Source of the DNA: an uncultured Ignavibacteria bacterium | Lineage (GTDB): Bacteria; Bacteroidota; Ignavibacteria; Tepidaquicellales; OLB5 | Reading direction: 5' to 3' | DNA length: 64,000 nt | Assembly: GCA_937873695.1 (NCBI GenBank) | Contig: CALMYL010000017.1 | Coordinates: forward strand, 62,001-126,000 | Shown: one piece after another, positions 4,651 through 11,008 of the stretch | Numbering within the stretch: the stretch's first letter is position 1 | Layout: each line of letters starts with the position of its first letter | The notes under the pieces: generated by a model | Databases searched by the model: none | Seen by the model: only the letters and a program-made list of their open reading frames with translations | What the model was told of the DNA's origin: nothing | Translations under genes and position numbers: made by a program

Positions 4651-5766
4651 TTAAATCCCTGCTTTTCTCACTACATTCAGATTTTTCATGGTACTTTCGG
4701 CATACGCCAGAATGTCTTCGATATCTGTTTGTGCCCTCAAATACTCAACATATTCCTTAACACTGTCTTCGGCGGTTCTTAATGGTGACCAGCCAAGTGA
4801 TTTGAGTTTGGTAATATCTGAGCATGCGTTCCTGGTGTCACCAAAACGGTATTCCCCTGAAATGTTTGCTTTAATATTTTCCTTACCAAATTCCCGGGCT
4901 ACAATTTCAGAAAAACCCTTTACGGTATATGCTTTACCGCCGCCAACATTAAAAGCATTATAATTTGCCCTTTCATCCTGCATAACAAGTATATTGGCAT
5001 CTACTACATCATGAACATTCACGAAATCACGCATCATTAAGCCATCTTCATAAACGGTAGGAGCTTTATCAAAAAAGTAACTCAATGAAAATATCCTGCA
5101 TGCTCCGCTGTACATATTATAAAATGACTGTCTTGAGCCTTGTACTATTGAGTATCGCATAGCAACGCTGGGAATGTTATAACGCTCTCCAAAATTCAGA
5201 GCCATCAGTTCCTGTGAATATTTTGAAATTGCGTATTGATTCGGGGGACATGCATAAGTTTCAGGTGTCCATACATATTCAAGAGGGTTACTATCTTTAT
5301 CTGTGAAATTCCACTGTCCTTTTTCAAGCTGTTCGTTTGACCTCCGTTTGGGATATACAAAATTTCCTTCTTTATCCCTGTATATGCCTTCGCCATTAAC
5401 AAATTGAGATGAGGCAACAACTATTTTTTTGATTGGCAGGTTCTTTGCAACAGCAATCTCATATATCAGGGCTGTACTGACAGAATTTACATGGAAAAAA
5501 GTGGAAAAATCAGGCAGGTAATCCTGGTATGCAGCAAGATGAAAAACGTAATCCACACCCTCAAGGGCTTTTTCAATAGTATCTCGGTCCCTTACATCAC
5601 CAAGGATAAATTCTGCATCCACTGGAATATAGGAAGGTTTGCCTTTTAGATGAACGGGTTTTTGAAGGTTATCTAGAATTCTGACAGAATAGCCGATTTT
5701 AAGCAGCCTATCAACTGTATGAGAGCCAATAAATCCTGCGCCGCCTGTTACTAATACTTTTTCCAT
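4651..5766 (-). CDS. NAD-dependent nucleotide-sugar epimerase/dehydratase (extended SDR)
   Basis: A 371-residue extended short-chain dehydrogenase. The NAD-binding GGAGFIG is at residues 8-14, GDVRD marks the adenine-binding Asp region near 56-60, FHLAAYQD follows, and the catalytic YAISK (Tyr-x3-Lys) lies near residues 177-181. The N-terminal region with its DNL...HLKGKPSYIP spacing resembles dTDP-L-rhamnose 4-epimerases and related bacterial sugar epimerases. It sits between gmhA and the heptose kinase gene, so its substrate may be a nucleotide-activated heptose or another sugar of the same glycan. The exact substrate is not decidable from sequence. Confidence 0.8.
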   Translation of the reverse strand: MEKVLVTGGAGFIGSHTVDRLLKIGYSVRILDNLQKPVHLKGKPSYIPVDAEFILGDVRDRDTIEKALEGVDYVFHLAAYQDYLPDFSTFFHVNSVSTALIYEIAVAKNLPIKKIVVASSQFVNGEGIYRDKEGNFVYPKRRSNEQLEKGQWNFTDKDSNPLEYVWTPETYACPPNQYAISKYSQELMALNFGERYNIPSVAMRYSIVQGSRQSFYNMYSGACRIFSLSYFFDKAPTVYEDGLMMRDFVNVHDVVDANILVMQDERANYNAFNVGGGKAYTVKGFSEIVAREFGKENIKANISGEYRFGDTRNACSDITKLKSLGWSPLRTAEDSVKEYVEYLRAQTDIEDILAYAESTMKNLNVVRKAGI

Positions 5767-5784
5767 TTATTACAAATAATGCAT

Positions 5785-6774
5785 TTATTTTATATCATAT
5801 CTTGTCTGATCGAAAATGATCTTGCTGCCGTACTTTTCAAGGAAGAATGGCAGTTCCCTATACATCCTCATACTTCTCCTGAGTGTATCCTGTTTATCCC
5901 TTTCGCAATACACCAAAAGAAATCCGCCTCCCCCGGCTCCGGAGATCTTAGCACCCAAAGCACCGCCATCCATAGCCAGCTGATGCATTTTATCAATTTC
6001 ACTATTAGAAACATTAGATGCCAATTGCTTCTTCATTTCCCAGTTGATCTTAAGGTTTTCGCCGACTCTGTTTATATCAAGTGAATTGAGTCCATCCAGA
6101 GTATCAAAAGCCAGTTCTTTGATCTTATGGTGAAACTCAATTTTGCTCAGTACGTTTTTGCTTTGTTCTTCAAGAATTGAGGCAGCTTTGCGCGTTGTAT
6201 CTGTAAAAAACAATAGAAGATTAGAGCCTAATTTTCGTTTTGCTTCACTTACAATTTCAATAGGTGTAACCTCGACAGTTTCATCTTTGCAAAATCTGAA
6301 AGATTTAAGTCCACCATAGGCTGCAATATACTGATCCTGCTTTCCTATGGGTCGTTTCAGAATGTCAATCTCAATTTTGCAGGCTTCAACAGCAAGCTGT
6401 TCCGCGGTAACCAGTTTGCCTAAATACTGGTAAAACGCATGAAGCAATCCTACCGTCAGGCTGCTTGAAGATCCGAGTCCCGAGCCTTCAGAGGGAATAT
6501 CGGCAAACATCATTACCTCAAAACCTTTAGTCATGCCTGTTAGCAGTGCTGCCTCTCTTACAAGGTCATGTTTAATCTCATTTATTGATTCAATTATTTC
6601 TTTACTGGAATAATCGACATAAATGAGATTATCAAATCGTTCCTTTACAATAACATAAATATACTTATCAATGGCTGTACTAACAACAAATCCTTCATAT
6701 GGAAGGTAGTAATTTGAAAGATCAGTGCCGCCTCCTGATAAACTTATCCTTAACGGTGTTTGCGAGATAATCAA
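5785..6774 (-). CDS. hddA: GHMP kinase, probable D-glycero-alpha-D-manno-heptose 7-phosphate kinase
   Basis: A 329-residue GHMP-superfamily sugar kinase. The N-terminus TPLRISLSGGGTDLSNYY (residues 5-22) is the hallmark of the HddA/fucokinase-like branch. The ATP-binding loop EGSGLGSSSSLTVGLLHA follows near residues 96-113, and the C-terminal GGALGAKISGAGGGGFL loop is near 270-286. With gmhA two genes downstream it most likely phosphorylates D-glycero-D-manno-heptose 7-phosphate at C1, on the route to GDP-heptose used in surface glycans. It starts three bases after the acetyltransferase stop, so the pair is translationally close. An alternative would be a kinase for another 6-deoxy or seven-carbon sugar. 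Confidence 0.8.
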   Translation of the reverse strand: MIISQTPLRISLSGGGTDLSNYYLPYEGFVVSTAIDKYIYVIVKERFDNLIYVDYSSKEIIESINEIKHDLVREAALLTGMTKGFEVMMFADIPSEGSGLGSSSSLTVGLLHAFYQYLGKLVTAEQLAVEACKIEIDILKRPIGKQDQYIAAYGGLKSFRFCKDETVEVTPIEIVSEAKRKLGSNLLLFFTDTTRKAASILEEQSKNVLSKIEFHHKIKELAFDTLDGLNSLDINRVGENLKINWEMKKQLASNVSNSEIDKMHQLAMDGGALGAKISGAGGGGFLLVYCERDKQDTLRRSMRMYRELPFFLEKYGSKIIFDQTRYDIK

Positions 6775-6777
6775 TGT

Positions 6778-7359
6778 TTATATTTCCTTTACTATACCAA
6801 TTTTATCGTCAGGGGTATAAGTGTATTTATTACCATCAGAATCTGATGCTGAATTGTTTGAATCAAAGATCAGTTTGTCTCCTGTTTTGCCGACCCAGTA
6901 TCTGAATTTAGCGGGATTTCCTGTAACCAGGGCAAAATCAGGCACTGATCTGGTAACTACAGAACCTGCCCCAATCAGACAATATCTTCCTAATGTAATT
7001 CCGCACAAAATGGTTGCGTTAGCCCCAACACTCGCTCCCTTTTTTAACAATGTAGATAAAAATTGTCCTGAATGTCTCTTACTTCTTGGGAACATATCAT
7101 TTGTGAAAACGGCGTTGGGACCCAAAAAAACATCATCTTCAACTACAAGTCCCTCCCACAGAGAAATTCCATTTTTAATTGTAACTCTGTTGCCTATGGT
7201 AACACCGCTTTCAACAAATACATAATCGCAGAGATTACAGTCTTCGCCTATTTTAACATCTTTAAGCACATGTGCGAATGCCCATATCCTGGTTTTCGCG
7301 CCAATATCGTCAGATTCGACAAGAGCATTGGGATGAACGAAATATTTTTTTTTCATCAA
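6778..7359 (-). CDS. Left-handed beta-helix N-acetyltransferase, WbpD-like
   Basis: A 193-residue hexapeptide-repeat acyltransferase. Rows of the [LIV]-G-x(4) type run from about residue 14 to 150 (DIGAKTRIWAFAHV, KIGEDCNLCDYVFV, TIGNRVTIKNGI, and later ASVGANATILCGI and TLGRYCLIGAGSVV). The FTNDMFPRS segment is characteristic of WbpD/WlbB enzymes, which acetylate the 3-amino group of UDP-2-acetamido-3-amino-2,3-dideoxyglucuronate. The flanking Gfo/Idh/MocA and DegT genes supply the WbpB-like oxidation and WbpE-like transamination of the same pathway, which strengthens this reading. Its start abuts the stop of the upstream dehydrogenase gene. Confidence 0.8.
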   Translation of the reverse strand: MMKKKYFVHPNALVESDDIGAKTRIWAFAHVLKDVKIGEDCNLCDYVFVESGVTIGNRVTIKNGISLWEGLVVEDDVFLGPNAVFTNDMFPRSKRHSGQFLSTLLKKGASVGANATILCGITLGRYCLIGAGSVVTRSVPDFALVTGNPAKFRYWVGKTGDKLIFDSNNSASDSDGNKYTYTPDDKIGIVKEI

Positions 7360-8385
7360 CTATTGTTTAATAAAAGATTCACTGGAAGTTTCAAGAAGTT
7401 TCACGACTTCAAGACCTATTTTGCCATCATTGACAAGTGGTTTTTTAAAAATTATTGAATTTATGAATTCCTGACACTCAAGTCTTAAAGGTTCATGCTG
7501 CTCGAGGGGAATCATTGTTATTTCGCCTGATTGATATCCAAGTACACCGGAATCAACTGCTTTGCTTTTTATCCTGTTATCTATTCCCAGCCCGTATAAT
7601 TTCAGTTTGCCATCAAGCGCCAGCATTTCATCATAAATCAGGGTTCCTTCAGTTCCGAATACCTGCATCAGTCTGACCTTATTCGACGAGATCCACCCCA
7701 AATGGATGTGTGCAGTCGCTCCGCTTTTGAAATTAAGATCAATATGTGCATTATTAGTAAGCCTGAACTTATTTTTTGCACCCGGTGCATTAAACGCGCC
7801 AAAAGGATACTCATTCCTGAAAGATGTAACCTTCCAAGGCGCTTCATTAAGGAGATATAAAATTATTGAAAAATCATGCGGACCCAGGTCCCAGATAACA
7901 TCTACTTCTGATTCAGGGGGACCAAGATTGATCCTTGTGGAAGTAATATGCAGAACTTTTCCGATAACCTTTTTCTTCAGAAGTTCTTTAATTTTTCTTA
8001 CTGCGGGGGCAAACTGGAACACATGGCCAACTGCAAGTTTTTTCCCCAGCTTTTCTGCAGTATATACCATAGATTCAGCTTCTTCGGTACTATATGCCAT
8101 GGGTTTTTCAACGAAGACATGTTTTCCCAAAATCATGGCTTCTTCTGCCAGTGCCATATGAGTTGTTACAGGAGTTGAAATAACAACAGCTCCAATAGAT
8201 TTATCTCTTAATATTTCACGGTAATCCTTTGTAACTTCGACAGTGGGGAATTCCTTCTTTATAAATTCAAGCCTGCCGGCTTTCAAGTCGCTTACTTTTT
8301 TAACCCTGCAGTTGGGTAGACCCATGAAATTCCTGATCAGCTTAGGTCCCCAATACCCGGCACCAATGACGCCGATATTAATGAT
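7360..8385 (-). CDS. Gfo/Idh/MocA NAD-dependent sugar dehydrogenase, start codon non-canonical
   Basis: The first ATG in frame (8323-8325) gives 321 residues but would cut off the Rossmann fold. The codons just upstream on the minus strand read K-I-I-N-I-G-V-I-G-A-G-Y-W-G-P-K-L-I-R-N-F, a perfect family N-terminus. The in-frame stretch back to a stop at 8446-8448 has no ATG, GTG or TTG. The start must therefore be an ATT/ATC (for example 8383-8385 or 8380-8382), or a mutation or sequence error has removed it. Other family marks are EKPMAYSTEEAE, AVGHVFQFAPAVR and the GPHDFSI catalytic His. With the neighbouring aminotransferase and acetyltransferase it probably acts like WbpB, oxidising the C3 of a UDP-N-acetylaminouronate. 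The start coordinate given is a best guess. Confidence 0.75.
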   Translation of the reverse strand: MINIGVIGAGYWGPKLIRNFMGLPNCRVKKVSDLKAGRLEFIKKEFPTVEVTKDYREILRDKSIGAVVISTPVTTHMALAEEAMILGKHVFVEKPMAYSTEEAESMVYTAEKLGKKLAVGHVFQFAPAVRKIKELLKKKVIGKVLHITSTRINLGPPESEVDVIWDLGPHDFSIILYLLNEAPWKVTSFRNEYPFGAFNAPGAKNKFRLTNNAHIDLNFKSGATAHIHLGWISSNKVRLMQVFGTEGTLIYDEMLALDGKLKLYGLGIDNRIKSKAVDSGVLGYQSGEITMIPLEQHEPLRLECQEFINSIIFKKPLVNDGKIGLEVVKLLETSSESFIKQ

Positions 8386-8405
8386 TTTCTCTGTGGATTT
8401 GATAA

Positions 8406-9866
8406 CTAAACACCGCCTTTTCCGAATACCATTACAGGTATAGTTTTAAAAAGAATTTTAAGGTCAAGCCATAAGGATTGATTATCTGCATAATACAGAT
8501 CAAGCAGCACGGAATCACTGAAAGTTACATCTTCGCGGTTACGTGCAATTATTTGAGCAAGCCCGGTAATTCCGGGAATTACTTTGTATTTCAATTTGTG
8601 CCAATCTTTGAAGTGTTCATATTCATATGGCAGACATGGCCTTGGGCCAACAAGGCTCATATTTCCGGTAAAAACATTCCATAACTGAGGCAACTCATCA
8701 AGACTGAATTTCCTGAGAAATTTTCCGGCACTTGTTATCCTGGGATCATTAACCAGTTTCTTATATCCTTTGTTGGAAGTGATAAGACTTTCCAGATGCA
8801 TTTCATGAACGCTTGTATCATTGTTCACATACATTGTTCTGAACTTATACCATTTAAATATTTTTCCGTTTTTGCCGATAACATTTGTCCTGAAAAACAC
8901 CGGTCCGGCAGATGTAAACTTGATAGATAATGCAACTAACAATAATACCGGAGATAGAAGAATGATCAATAAACCTGATGCGGTTATATCAAAAATTCTC
9001 TTGAATTTTTCTGAATATAGCGGAGAAAGTTTAGGTGAAACAGAAATAACTTTAAGATCATGATATTCTCCTTCATCCAGTTTGGCAGAAATAATATCAA
9101 AATGATTTGATACAAGATTTACATGACAGTTTGTCAGCTTACATTTTTCAATAAGATCAAGCAGCTTTTTGTTTTCAATATTCTGGATCGTTATAAAGAT
9201 CTCATCAATTTCCTGTTCTTCGGTAATCTCCAGGATATCATCGACAGTTCCAATTACAGGAACCCTGTTAACGATCGTTCCATTTTTTGCGGGATTTTCA
9301 TCAATAAATCCAATTAATTCAATATGATAATGAGGCTTTACAGTCAGAATTTCAGAAAAGAAAATTCCTAAATTTCCTGCTCCAACTGCTATTGCACGCC
9401 TAGTTATGAATTCTTTGATGTTCCCGCCGACATAATTAGCTCTGAGAATTCTCCTTAATAGCAGGACACGGGTAGTGAACAATAGGGCAAATGAAACAGT
9501 AAAGTATATAATGACCTGTGTTCTTGAATCGTGAAGAGCTTCCTGTGTTTTAATTATAAAAATACCGATAATTATAATGATACTGTTTATCAGTAATCCT
9601 TTCAGGATAAGCAGGGTCTGTTCGCCAACACGCAGAAAATACTTGTGTTTATACAGCTGGTAATATCTGAAAATAGGAATAATAAGGAGTGCTCCAAACA
9701 TGAATATCAGAAGCTTCTCTATAAAGGTAAGCTCGGTAAAATATACATCAAAACCAGGGGCAGTAAAATACAGCGAAAGAATGAAAGCGATAAAAGTACA
9801 AAGGATATCATTAACTGATAGTATCAGCTTTTTTGCACCCCACTTTTTTATGAATTCATCCAGCAT
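8406..9866 (-). CDS. Undecaprenyl-phosphate sugar phosphotransferase (WbaP/WcaJ-type initiating transferase)
   Basis: A 486-residue membrane enzyme that transfers a sugar-1-phosphate from a nucleotide sugar to undecaprenyl phosphate, starting assembly of a polysaccharide repeat unit. The N-terminal third has four or five membrane helices. Next is a CoA-binding-like cytosolic domain with GAGNLGIFFSEIL near residue 160. The C-terminal bacterial sugar transferase domain starts with a membrane re-entrant helix after KRIFDI and carries WYKFRTM, DELPQLWNVFTGNMSLVGPRP and a closing GITGLAQI block. Length matches full-size WcaJ-like proteins. It lies second in the operon after the DegT gene, and its stop is just upstream of the Gfo reading frame. 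Which sugar it loads cannot be told. Confidence 0.9.
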   Translation of the reverse strand: MLDEFIKKWGAKKLILSVNDILCTFIAFILSLYFTAPGFDVYFTELTFIEKLLIFMFGALLIIPIFRYYQLYKHKYFLRVGEQTLLILKGLLINSIIIIIGIFIIKTQEALHDSRTQVIIYFTVSFALLFTTRVLLLRRILRANYVGGNIKEFITRRAIAVGAGNLGIFFSEILTVKPHYHIELIGFIDENPAKNGTIVNRVPVIGTVDDILEITEEQEIDEIFITIQNIENKKLLDLIEKCKLTNCHVNLVSNHFDIISAKLDEGEYHDLKVISVSPKLSPLYSEKFKRIFDITASGLLIILLSPVLLLVALSIKFTSAGPVFFRTNVIGKNGKIFKWYKFRTMYVNNDTSVHEMHLESLITSNKGYKKLVNDPRITSAGKFLRKFSLDELPQLWNVFTGNMSLVGPRPCLPYEYEHFKDWHKLKYKVIPGITGLAQIIARNREDVTFSDSVLLDLYYADNQSLWLDLKILFKTIPVMVFGKGGV

Positions 9867-9895: not shown

Positions 9896-11008
9896 TTATC
9901 TGGTGTAAAATTGCTTAATTGTGCTGCAAACATAATCTATCATGTCTTCCGTCATTTCAGGGTACATAGGTATCGAAAGAATTTCTTCTGCGAATTTCCT
10001 GGCAACAGGAAAATCTTCCGGTCTGTATCCCAAATGCGAATAAGCCTTCTGCATATGAAGCGGAAGGGGATAGTGTAAACCGTTTTGAACGCCATTCTTA
10101 TTCAGGTGTTCTATAAGTTTCTCCCGGTTCTTAACTCTAATGATATACAAATGGTAGACGGGATCCACGTAATCAGGATGCCATGGAGTGATAACTTCTT
10201 CAATGCCCAGAGAAGCAAATTTTTCTGTGTACATTTGTGCATTTTTTCGGCGCATATCTGTCCACTTTTGTATATATTTCATCTTAACATTAAGAACTCC
10301 GGACTGTATTTCTTCCATCCGGTAATTGTGACCTTCTATATCATGAATATACTTTTCAATTGATCCATGCTGGCGGTACCTGAGCATAAAATTATACAGC
10401 TTTTCATCATTTGTGGTAACGCCACCGCCTTCTCCATATGCACCAAGATTCTTACCCGGATAAAAACTGAAAGTACCGATTACACCTAATCCGCCAATTT
10501 TTTTACCTTTGTAGGTTGCCAGGTGTGCCTGTGAACAATCTTCAACTACATGAAGATTATGTTTTTTCGCAATTTCAAGAATTGCATCCATTTCAGCGGG
10601 CTGACCATATAAGTGAACAGGAATAATTGCTTTCGTATTAGGGGTTATTGCGGCTTCTATTTTATTTACATCAATATTATAAGTTTTTTCATCGTTATCA
10701 ACAAAAACAGGTTTTGCATAACATAATGATACACCTTCAGCAGTAGCGATATACGTATTTACTGGAACTATAACTTCATCACCATGTTTGATGCCGAGCG
10801 CATGCATTGCTACATGCAGGGCATCTGTGCCGGTACTTAACCCAATGGCGTGTTTTACATTATGAATTCCGGCAAAATCCTCTTCAAATTTTTTGGCCTT
10901 TTTACCGCAAATGTAGGCGGTATTATCCAAAACATCATTTATCTCTTTTAAAACTTCTTCTTTGATACCCTGATATTGGGTCTTAAGATCAACAAATGGA
11001 ACGTTCAT
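9896..11008 (-). CDS. DegT/DnrJ/EryC1/StrS PLP-dependent sugar aminotransferase (WbpE-like)
   Basis: A 370-residue fold-type I PLP enzyme that aminates a keto nucleotide sugar using glutamate. The internal-aldimine lysine is Lys186 in the family motif SFYPGKNLGAYGEGG. Asp157 in VEDCSQAH contacts the PLP ring nitrogen, and GTDALHVAM near residues 60-68 contacts the phosphate. The nearby WbpB-like and WbpD-like genes make a UDP-3-oxo-GlcNAc-uronate aminotransferase role likely. It is the first gene of the polysaccharide block. The 135 bp before it (11009-11143) is AT-rich and should hold the promoter, but I found no clear box there. Confidence 0.88.
   Translation of the reverse strand: MNVPFVDLKTQYQGIKEEVLKEINDVLDNTAYICGKKAKKFEEDFAGIHNVKHAIGLSTGTDALHVAMHALGIKHGDEVIVPVNTYIATAEGVSLCYAKPVFVDNDEKTYNIDVNKIEAAITPNTKAIIPVHLYGQPAEMDAILEIAKKHNLHVVEDCSQAHLATYKGKKIGGLGVIGTFSFYPGKNLGAYGEGGGVTTNDEKLYNFMLRYRQHGSIEKYIHDIEGHNYRMEEIQSGVLNVKMKYIQKWTDMRRKNAQMYTEKFASLGIEEVITPWHPDYVDPVYHLYIIRVKNREKLIEHLNKNGVQNGLHYPLPLHMQKAYSHLGYRPEDFPVARKFAEEILSIPMYPEMTEDMIDYVCSTIKQFYTR

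Follow-up and report, generated by a model that had tools for sequence, protein, structure and literature searches.

Where does translation of a gene begin when no ATG, GTG or TTG codon stands ahead of the first conserved motif of its product? This question is raised by a Gfo/Idh/MocA oxidoreductase gene in the DNA analysed here, a stretch of 64,000 nucleotides (hereafter the window) from OLB5, a lineage placed in Ignavibacteria. A sequence-only reading of the window had claimed that the gene has no canonical start codon before its Rossmann motif. Reading and translating the frame anew bears this out, with the coordinates right: on the minus strand no stop interrupts the frame between TAA 8448-8446 and the one at 7362-7360, and no in-frame ATG, GTG or TTG lies between that TAA and the motif. 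The earliest such codon is ATG 8325-8323, which is 26 codons past an ATC at 8403-8401 and behind the motif GVIGAGYWG. A gap of 2 nt separates this ATC from TAG 8408-8406, the stop of the preceding sugar transferase gene (Table 1).

The encoded protein belongs to the Gfo/Idh/MocA family, with a PF01408 match of 89.2 bits (cut-off 24) across residues 8-127 and a Rossmann motif at the N-terminus. The best of nine NCBIfam models, the UDP-GlcNAc 3-dehydrogenase equivalog NF040723, scores 159.9 bits, below its cut-off of 450, and the solved relatives of the protein are general oxidoreductases. A DegT aminotransferase, a hexapeptide acetyltransferase and a lipid-linked sugar transferase are encoded alongside, and the predicted role of the enzyme is thus likely to lie in making an aminosugar for a surface glycan. 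Presumably this role resembles that of WlbA/WbpB.

Table 1. Features of the window at and around the Gfo/Idh/MocA gene
Feature	Position	Strand	Evidence or remark
NAD-dependent epimerase/dehydratase, same cluster	4651..5766	-	profile matches
GHMP kinase, heptose-7-phosphate-kinase-like, same cluster	5785..6774	-	profile matches
Hexapeptide acetyltransferase, downstream gene	6778..7356	-	PF00132
Gfo/Idh/MocA oxidoreductase, 347 aa counted from ATC	7360..8403	-	PF01408; aligned with 11 orthologues from residue 1
Earliest in-frame ATG, rejected as the start	8323..8325	-	behind Rossmann motif; ATG in 5/12 orthologues
ATC, inferred start of the Gfo/Idh/MocA gene	8401..8403	-	ATC/ATT in 12/12 aligned orthologues
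TAG stop of sugar transferase	8406..8408	-	2 nt before ATC
Shine-Dalgarno-like stretch AAGGCGGTG, inside transferase gene	8411..8419	-	ends 7 nt before ATC; duplex energy -9.5 with 16S tail
Polyprenyl-phosphate sugar transferase (EPS_sugtrans), upstream gene, C-terminus GKGGV	8406..9866	-	TIGR03025 376 bits, cut-off 295.55
DegT/DnrJ/EryC1/StrS aminotransferase, same cluster	9896..11008	-	PF01041 407.8 bits

Conservation of an ATC or ATT codon among relatives

We searched for homologues in 99 genomes, the window's own included; public contigs yielded 80 loci, Ignavibacteria MAGs among them. The family of the window's genome comprises 15 genomes (G000-G014), 14 of which gave a strong match, while G007 (64% complete) gave only weak ones. 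Comparison with these close relatives, a check that the sequence-only reading had proposed, revealed ATC (seven) or ATT (five) at codon 1 in 12 of the 14 genomes with an orthologue, and never ATA, ATG, GTG or TTG in these 12 (own, G011, G005, G009, G001, G008, G002, G003, G010, G013, G004 and G012). The 11 orthologous proteins are 74-92% identical to that of the window and 342-348 residues long. The two remaining family members, G006 and G014, have TTG and ATG, respectively, as starts, each closer to the Rossmann motif than the ATC/ATT site, and their proteins share only 61% identity with that of the window. More distant homologues in the class, inspected by eye, start with ATG, TTG or GTG.

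As a control, we examined 109 homologue loci (L006-L114), a set that includes some genomes fetched twice and counts G008 and G013 as canonical. A canonical codon lies at most 25 codons upstream of the Rossmann motif in 98 of these loci, and every one of the other 11 (nine distinct sequences, two fetched twice) comes from the window's own genus. The gene shows two features of genes with a conserved non-canonical start: ten of the 12 genomes, the window's included, have no ATG, GTG or TTG at the conserved N-terminus or anywhere back to the in-frame stop, and all 12 keep the rare codon across species. In G008 and G013 an in-frame TTG precedes the ATC/ATT, by 7 and 8 codons, respectively; it falls within the transferase gene, just before the Shine-Dalgarno-like stretch.

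Codon 1 stands out from its surroundings. Among the 12 orthologues, variation is seen in the preceding codon and in codons 3-5; codon 2 encodes lysine in 11 of them. Mean pairwise identity is 0.81 for the proteins and 0.36 at four-fold sites; silent sites are thus saturated, and a codon free of selection would have drifted. Isoleucine occupies 13 columns in all 12 proteins, and ATA, a common codon in these genes (ATT 155, ATA 125, ATC 78), is seen one to seven times in 12 of the columns and is absent only at column 1. This absence is one column in 13, and since the 12 sequences are related such conservation counts are not independent trials.

A midpoint-rooted tree of 29 of the 30 rows (L111, which has no match to the motif used, was left out) places the 12 ATC/ATT sequences in one clade (support 100/98), with G006 and G014 as the sister pair. 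By hand count, the third base of codon 1 requires at least three C/T changes on this tree and none to G or A. The ATC/ATT codon is fixed across most of the family. That a rare codon is kept in twelve related genomes makes sequencing error unlikely and suggests that the start is probably maintained for a reason.

Other non-canonical starts in the genus

The same kind of start occurs in infC, the gene for initiation factor IF3. The infC of the window's genome (C4, L203:15190-15816, minus strand) starts with ATT and has no canonical codon before residue 40. An ATT/ATC-AAR start with AAGGAG upstream is present in all 12 genus genomes read, of 13 (the G001 row, L127, was dropped). In the neighbouring family, infC was read by eye in seven of eight genomes and begins with ATT (five), ATC (one) or ATA (one). 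No infC locus was found in G018.

We searched 1.664 Mb of the window's genome (44%, 1327 gene calls) for signs of coding that precede the first canonical start of a gene; the approach needs a signal of several codons and misses genes in which an ATG closely follows the true start. A first pass that required a Shine-Dalgarno sequence returned three candidates in 990 gene calls, the third of which (L194) has a plausible ATG. A second pass returned 14 rows with a laxer Shine-Dalgarno requirement (list A) and 27 with none (list B). The view that infC and the Gfo/Idh/MocA gene are the only such genes was given up, as this pass and comparison with relatives support two more; the other rows have ordinary starts just downstream, judged by eye.

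A methyltransferase-like gene (C23, L193:2644-3450, minus strand) has an ATC-AAA start. Its start is ATC, ATT or ATA in the window's genome, G002, G008 and G009, and also in G001 in the stretch read, and ATG or TTG in G004, G005, G006 and G010-G014; such starts can thus drift in the genus. A membrane protein gene (C8, L181:14704-15948, plus strand) is a candidate for a non-canonical start, with no canonical codon from the in-frame stop to the conserved N-terminus in any of the eight genomes in which the gene was found (15 searched). A VanZ-like gene (C4, L204, minus strand, ORF offset 595) may start with CTG, also in G009, and is a candidate only, since the two genomes share a TTG inside the first hydrophobic stretch.

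We also compared 249 gene pairs, the window's Gfo/Idh/MocA gene left out, between its genome and G009. The two genomes have a canonical start at the same column in 208 pairs and at different columns in 12; four pairs are canonical in G009 only, four in the window's genome only and 21 in neither. Of these 21, 19 were judged by eye to have an ATG or TTG no more than about 30 codons further downstream, and the remaining two are infC and the VanZ-like gene. Starts of the AUC/AUU type are rare in this genome, a handful in 1327 gene calls, but more than one.

Shine-Dalgarno-like pairing and the initiation machinery

Each of the 12 orthologues has a Shine-Dalgarno-like stretch whose pairing energy with the 16S tail lies between -7.0 and -11.5 kcal/mol (median -10.35) and which ends 7-11 nt ahead of the start. 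The median pairing energy at the 208 conserved canonical starts is -1.8, and only 5.8% of them reach -9.5, which points to a generally weak use of Shine-Dalgarno sequences in the window's genome. When the GKGG end of the transferase is randomly recoded with synonymous codons, stretches nearly as strong arise (mean quantile 0.42, with six of 12 in the strongest third and G005 near the weakest at 0.96). Strength is thus largely forced by the GKGG codons and gives no clear sign of selection.

Two side observations concern pairing more generally. The transferase C-terminal GKGG (window 8406-8421) tends by itself to encode a Shine-Dalgarno-like sequence just before the next gene, and wherever a genome has this gene order, the gene that follows may benefit from the stretch. 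Separately, pairing at the 208 conserved canonical starts of the window's genome falls short of that at 400 random positions inside genes (median -3.1), and this weakness occurs despite a normal 16S tail.

A pattern search recovered this tail, GGATCACCTCCTT, in the window's genome, one of four genomes of 15 in which the 16S 3' tail was found by pattern; a covariance model gave no 16S match in the window's genome. Bacteroidia hide the anti-Shine-Dalgarno sequence (PMC8710568), and if ribosomes of the Ignavibacteria class do likewise the stretch may matter less. A tRNA-Met with a CAU anticodon and an initiator-type stem is encoded at C14:1034 (anticodon-stem pattern and ARAGORN), and a second CAU pattern match, C6:53755, lies in no tRNA. 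We also considered a special initiator tRNA with a GAU anticodon; none of the 26 anticodon-stem matches in the genome reads GGGYTGATRACCC, with a pattern that would miss unusual stems.

A probable weak start coupled to the transferase gene

The transferase and acetyltransferase genes flank the Gfo/Idh/MocA gene at all 12 orthologue loci. Between the transferase stop and the ATC/ATT lie 2 nt in six genomes; the gap is 1 nt for three others, 3 nt for two more and 4 nt for G013, whose transferase gene has two in-frame stops in direct succession. All 12 pairs thus lie at the very short distance that, like overlap, marks coupled genes. In the outgroup, L099, L103 and L106 combine the two neighbours with a canonical start, so the neighbours alone do not require ATC/ATT.

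We consider it probable that the gene has a conserved, weak AUC/AUU start, coupled to the transferase and of low output, perhaps sensitive to IF3, in the manner of infC, ccpN, cvfC1 and sigR. Judging from the sequence, the ordinary initiator tRNA (CAU) would initiate at ATC 8403-8401 with fMet and at low efficiency, through near-cognate pairing with AUC. The purine-rich Shine-Dalgarno-like stretch at the end of the transferase gene and ribosomes terminating on the transferase 1-4 nt upstream would both assist. Since AUC/AUU starts are weak, synthesis of the dehydrogenase would be slower than that of the proteins encoded beside it in the operon. More tentatively, the level of IF3 may tune this start. 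Counting against a weak, coupled start are the sister sequences, which do without ATC/ATT (TTG in G006, ATG in G014), though a search of both loci found neither the transferase nor the acetyltransferase neighbour.

The sequence-only reading had left three options, and coupled re-initiation at a rare codon is the one that fits; a lost start and an assembly error do not. ATC is indeed one base away from ATG, yet ATC or ATT stands at the same column of a closely similar gene in eleven other genomes, which leaves a sequencing error or a recent pseudogene with a negligible probability. It is improbable, too, that the protein starts elsewhere, be it at a TTG inside the transferase gene, at an isoleucine or leucine codon further on in strand beta-1, or at ATG 8325. 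The upstream TTG is a possible start in G008 and G013 but is missing from the other ten, and a longer protein is impossible in G010 and G004, where the transferase stop is in frame one codon upstream of the ATC. Near the motif, codon 8 is the next candidate that recurs as isoleucine; some orthologues have ATT, ATC or ATA there, but others have GTA, CTG or TTA. ATG 8325, whose use by relatives would have told against the sequence-only reading, is ATG in just five of the 12 orthologues; the next canonical codon of the other seven falls at residue 37-90, and a start at ATG 8325 would also remove the Rossmann motif. A programmed -1 frameshift near the transferase stop, yielding a transferase-dehydrogenase fusion, is suggested by the window, where the dehydrogenase frame is -1 to the transferase and open back to 8448 across the A-rich GGAAAAGGC. 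Residues before codon 1 are moreover alike among genomes with the same offset, but the DNA there also encodes the transferase end, and across offsets these residues differ. With gaps of 1, 2, 3 or 4 nt, all three frame relations occur among the 12 orthologues, the transferase stop being in frame with the dehydrogenase in two; no constant frame exists, which excludes a shared fusion and makes a frameshift very improbable. The sequence comparison places the start boundary at the ATC/ATT codon.

A more serious contender, though still rather unlikely, accepts AUC/AUU as the true start and denies it regulatory meaning: start choice would be relaxed in the lineage and the codon merely retained. Other genes of the genus lack canonical starts as well (the methyltransferase, the membrane protein and possibly the VanZ-like CTG gene), and the methyltransferase start does drift. 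Against mere retention, a single-base change would turn ATC/ATT into ATG, and it is fixed in none of the 12 genomes despite saturated silent sites; the repeated third-base changes on the tree likewise went between C and T alone. Beyond a coupled weak start at this one gene, AUC/AUU starts could amount to a shared control in the Ignavibacteria family, with IF3 setting both its own level and the output of the nucleotide-sugar dehydrogenase. We regard this extension as doubtful. If true, the supply of surface-glycan precursors would follow the state of the translation machinery, and the other genes with AUH or CUG starts (methyltransferase, membrane protein and VanZ-like) would belong to the same group.

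Comparison with known non-canonical starts

The pcnB gene of E. coli, which is unrelated to Gfo/Idh/MocA and not known to belong to a sugar operon, reportedly has an AUU start that limits its translation. The rare start of Streptomyces sigR sits, we assume, on the first gene of a pair. PMC5472188 reports that the infC start is ATT in E. coli and ATC in Streptomyces, with feedback autoregulation by IF3, and that IF3 represses the GTC start of sigR. The Gfo/Idh/MocA gene resembles infC in its conserved AUC/AUU start followed by a lysine codon, and the infC of its own genus has such a start; it differs in that its product is a metabolic enzyme and in its place within an operon, 1-4 nt behind the stop of the preceding gene. 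The likeness to sigR, as described there, is that one of two co-transcribed genes has a rare start, by which its product is (sigR) or would be (Gfo/Idh/MocA) reduced relative to that of the other. Unlike the Gfo/Idh/MocA gene, sigR encodes a sigma factor and uses GTC rather than ATC/ATT.

The S. aureus genes cvfC1 (AUU) and ccpN (AUA) provide another comparison, with reporters at about 10% of AUG output in poor medium (PMC13009471). They share with the Gfo/Idh/MocA gene a conserved non-canonical start. They belong to another phylum and gene class, and initiation was measured in S. aureus but is inferred here; their Shine-Dalgarno sequence is strong, and the Shine-Dalgarno-like stretch of the Gfo/Idh/MocA gene, similar in strength of pairing, is mostly explained by the codons of the upstream protein.

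Only a small number of non-canonical start codons have been characterised in bacteria, and gene finders rely on ATG, GTG and TTG (PMC5472188). For Gfo/Idh/MocA genes, and for Ignavibacteria, titles and abstract openings of the open-licence literature named no non-AUG start. The locus adds a rare start in a biosynthetic gene, alongside infC, in a lineage where Shine-Dalgarno sequences are seldom found at conserved canonical starts. With it one can test directly whether selection for enzyme dosage or for IF3 control preserves weak starts, and it warns that genes of this Ignavibacteria group may be annotated without their cofactor-binding motif.

Termination-reinitiation coupling needs overlaps or very short distances, according to PMC10666635. 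The 1-4 nt gap falls in this range, although the pairs described there mostly have -4 and -1 nt overlaps, compared with a small positive gap and a non-AUG start here. The cost of such a start varies: in one context described in PMC9680021, AUU, AUA, CUG and AUC give 0.1-0.3% of AUG output in E. coli and 5-20% in two clostridia, and the start-codon penalty is thus species-dependent.
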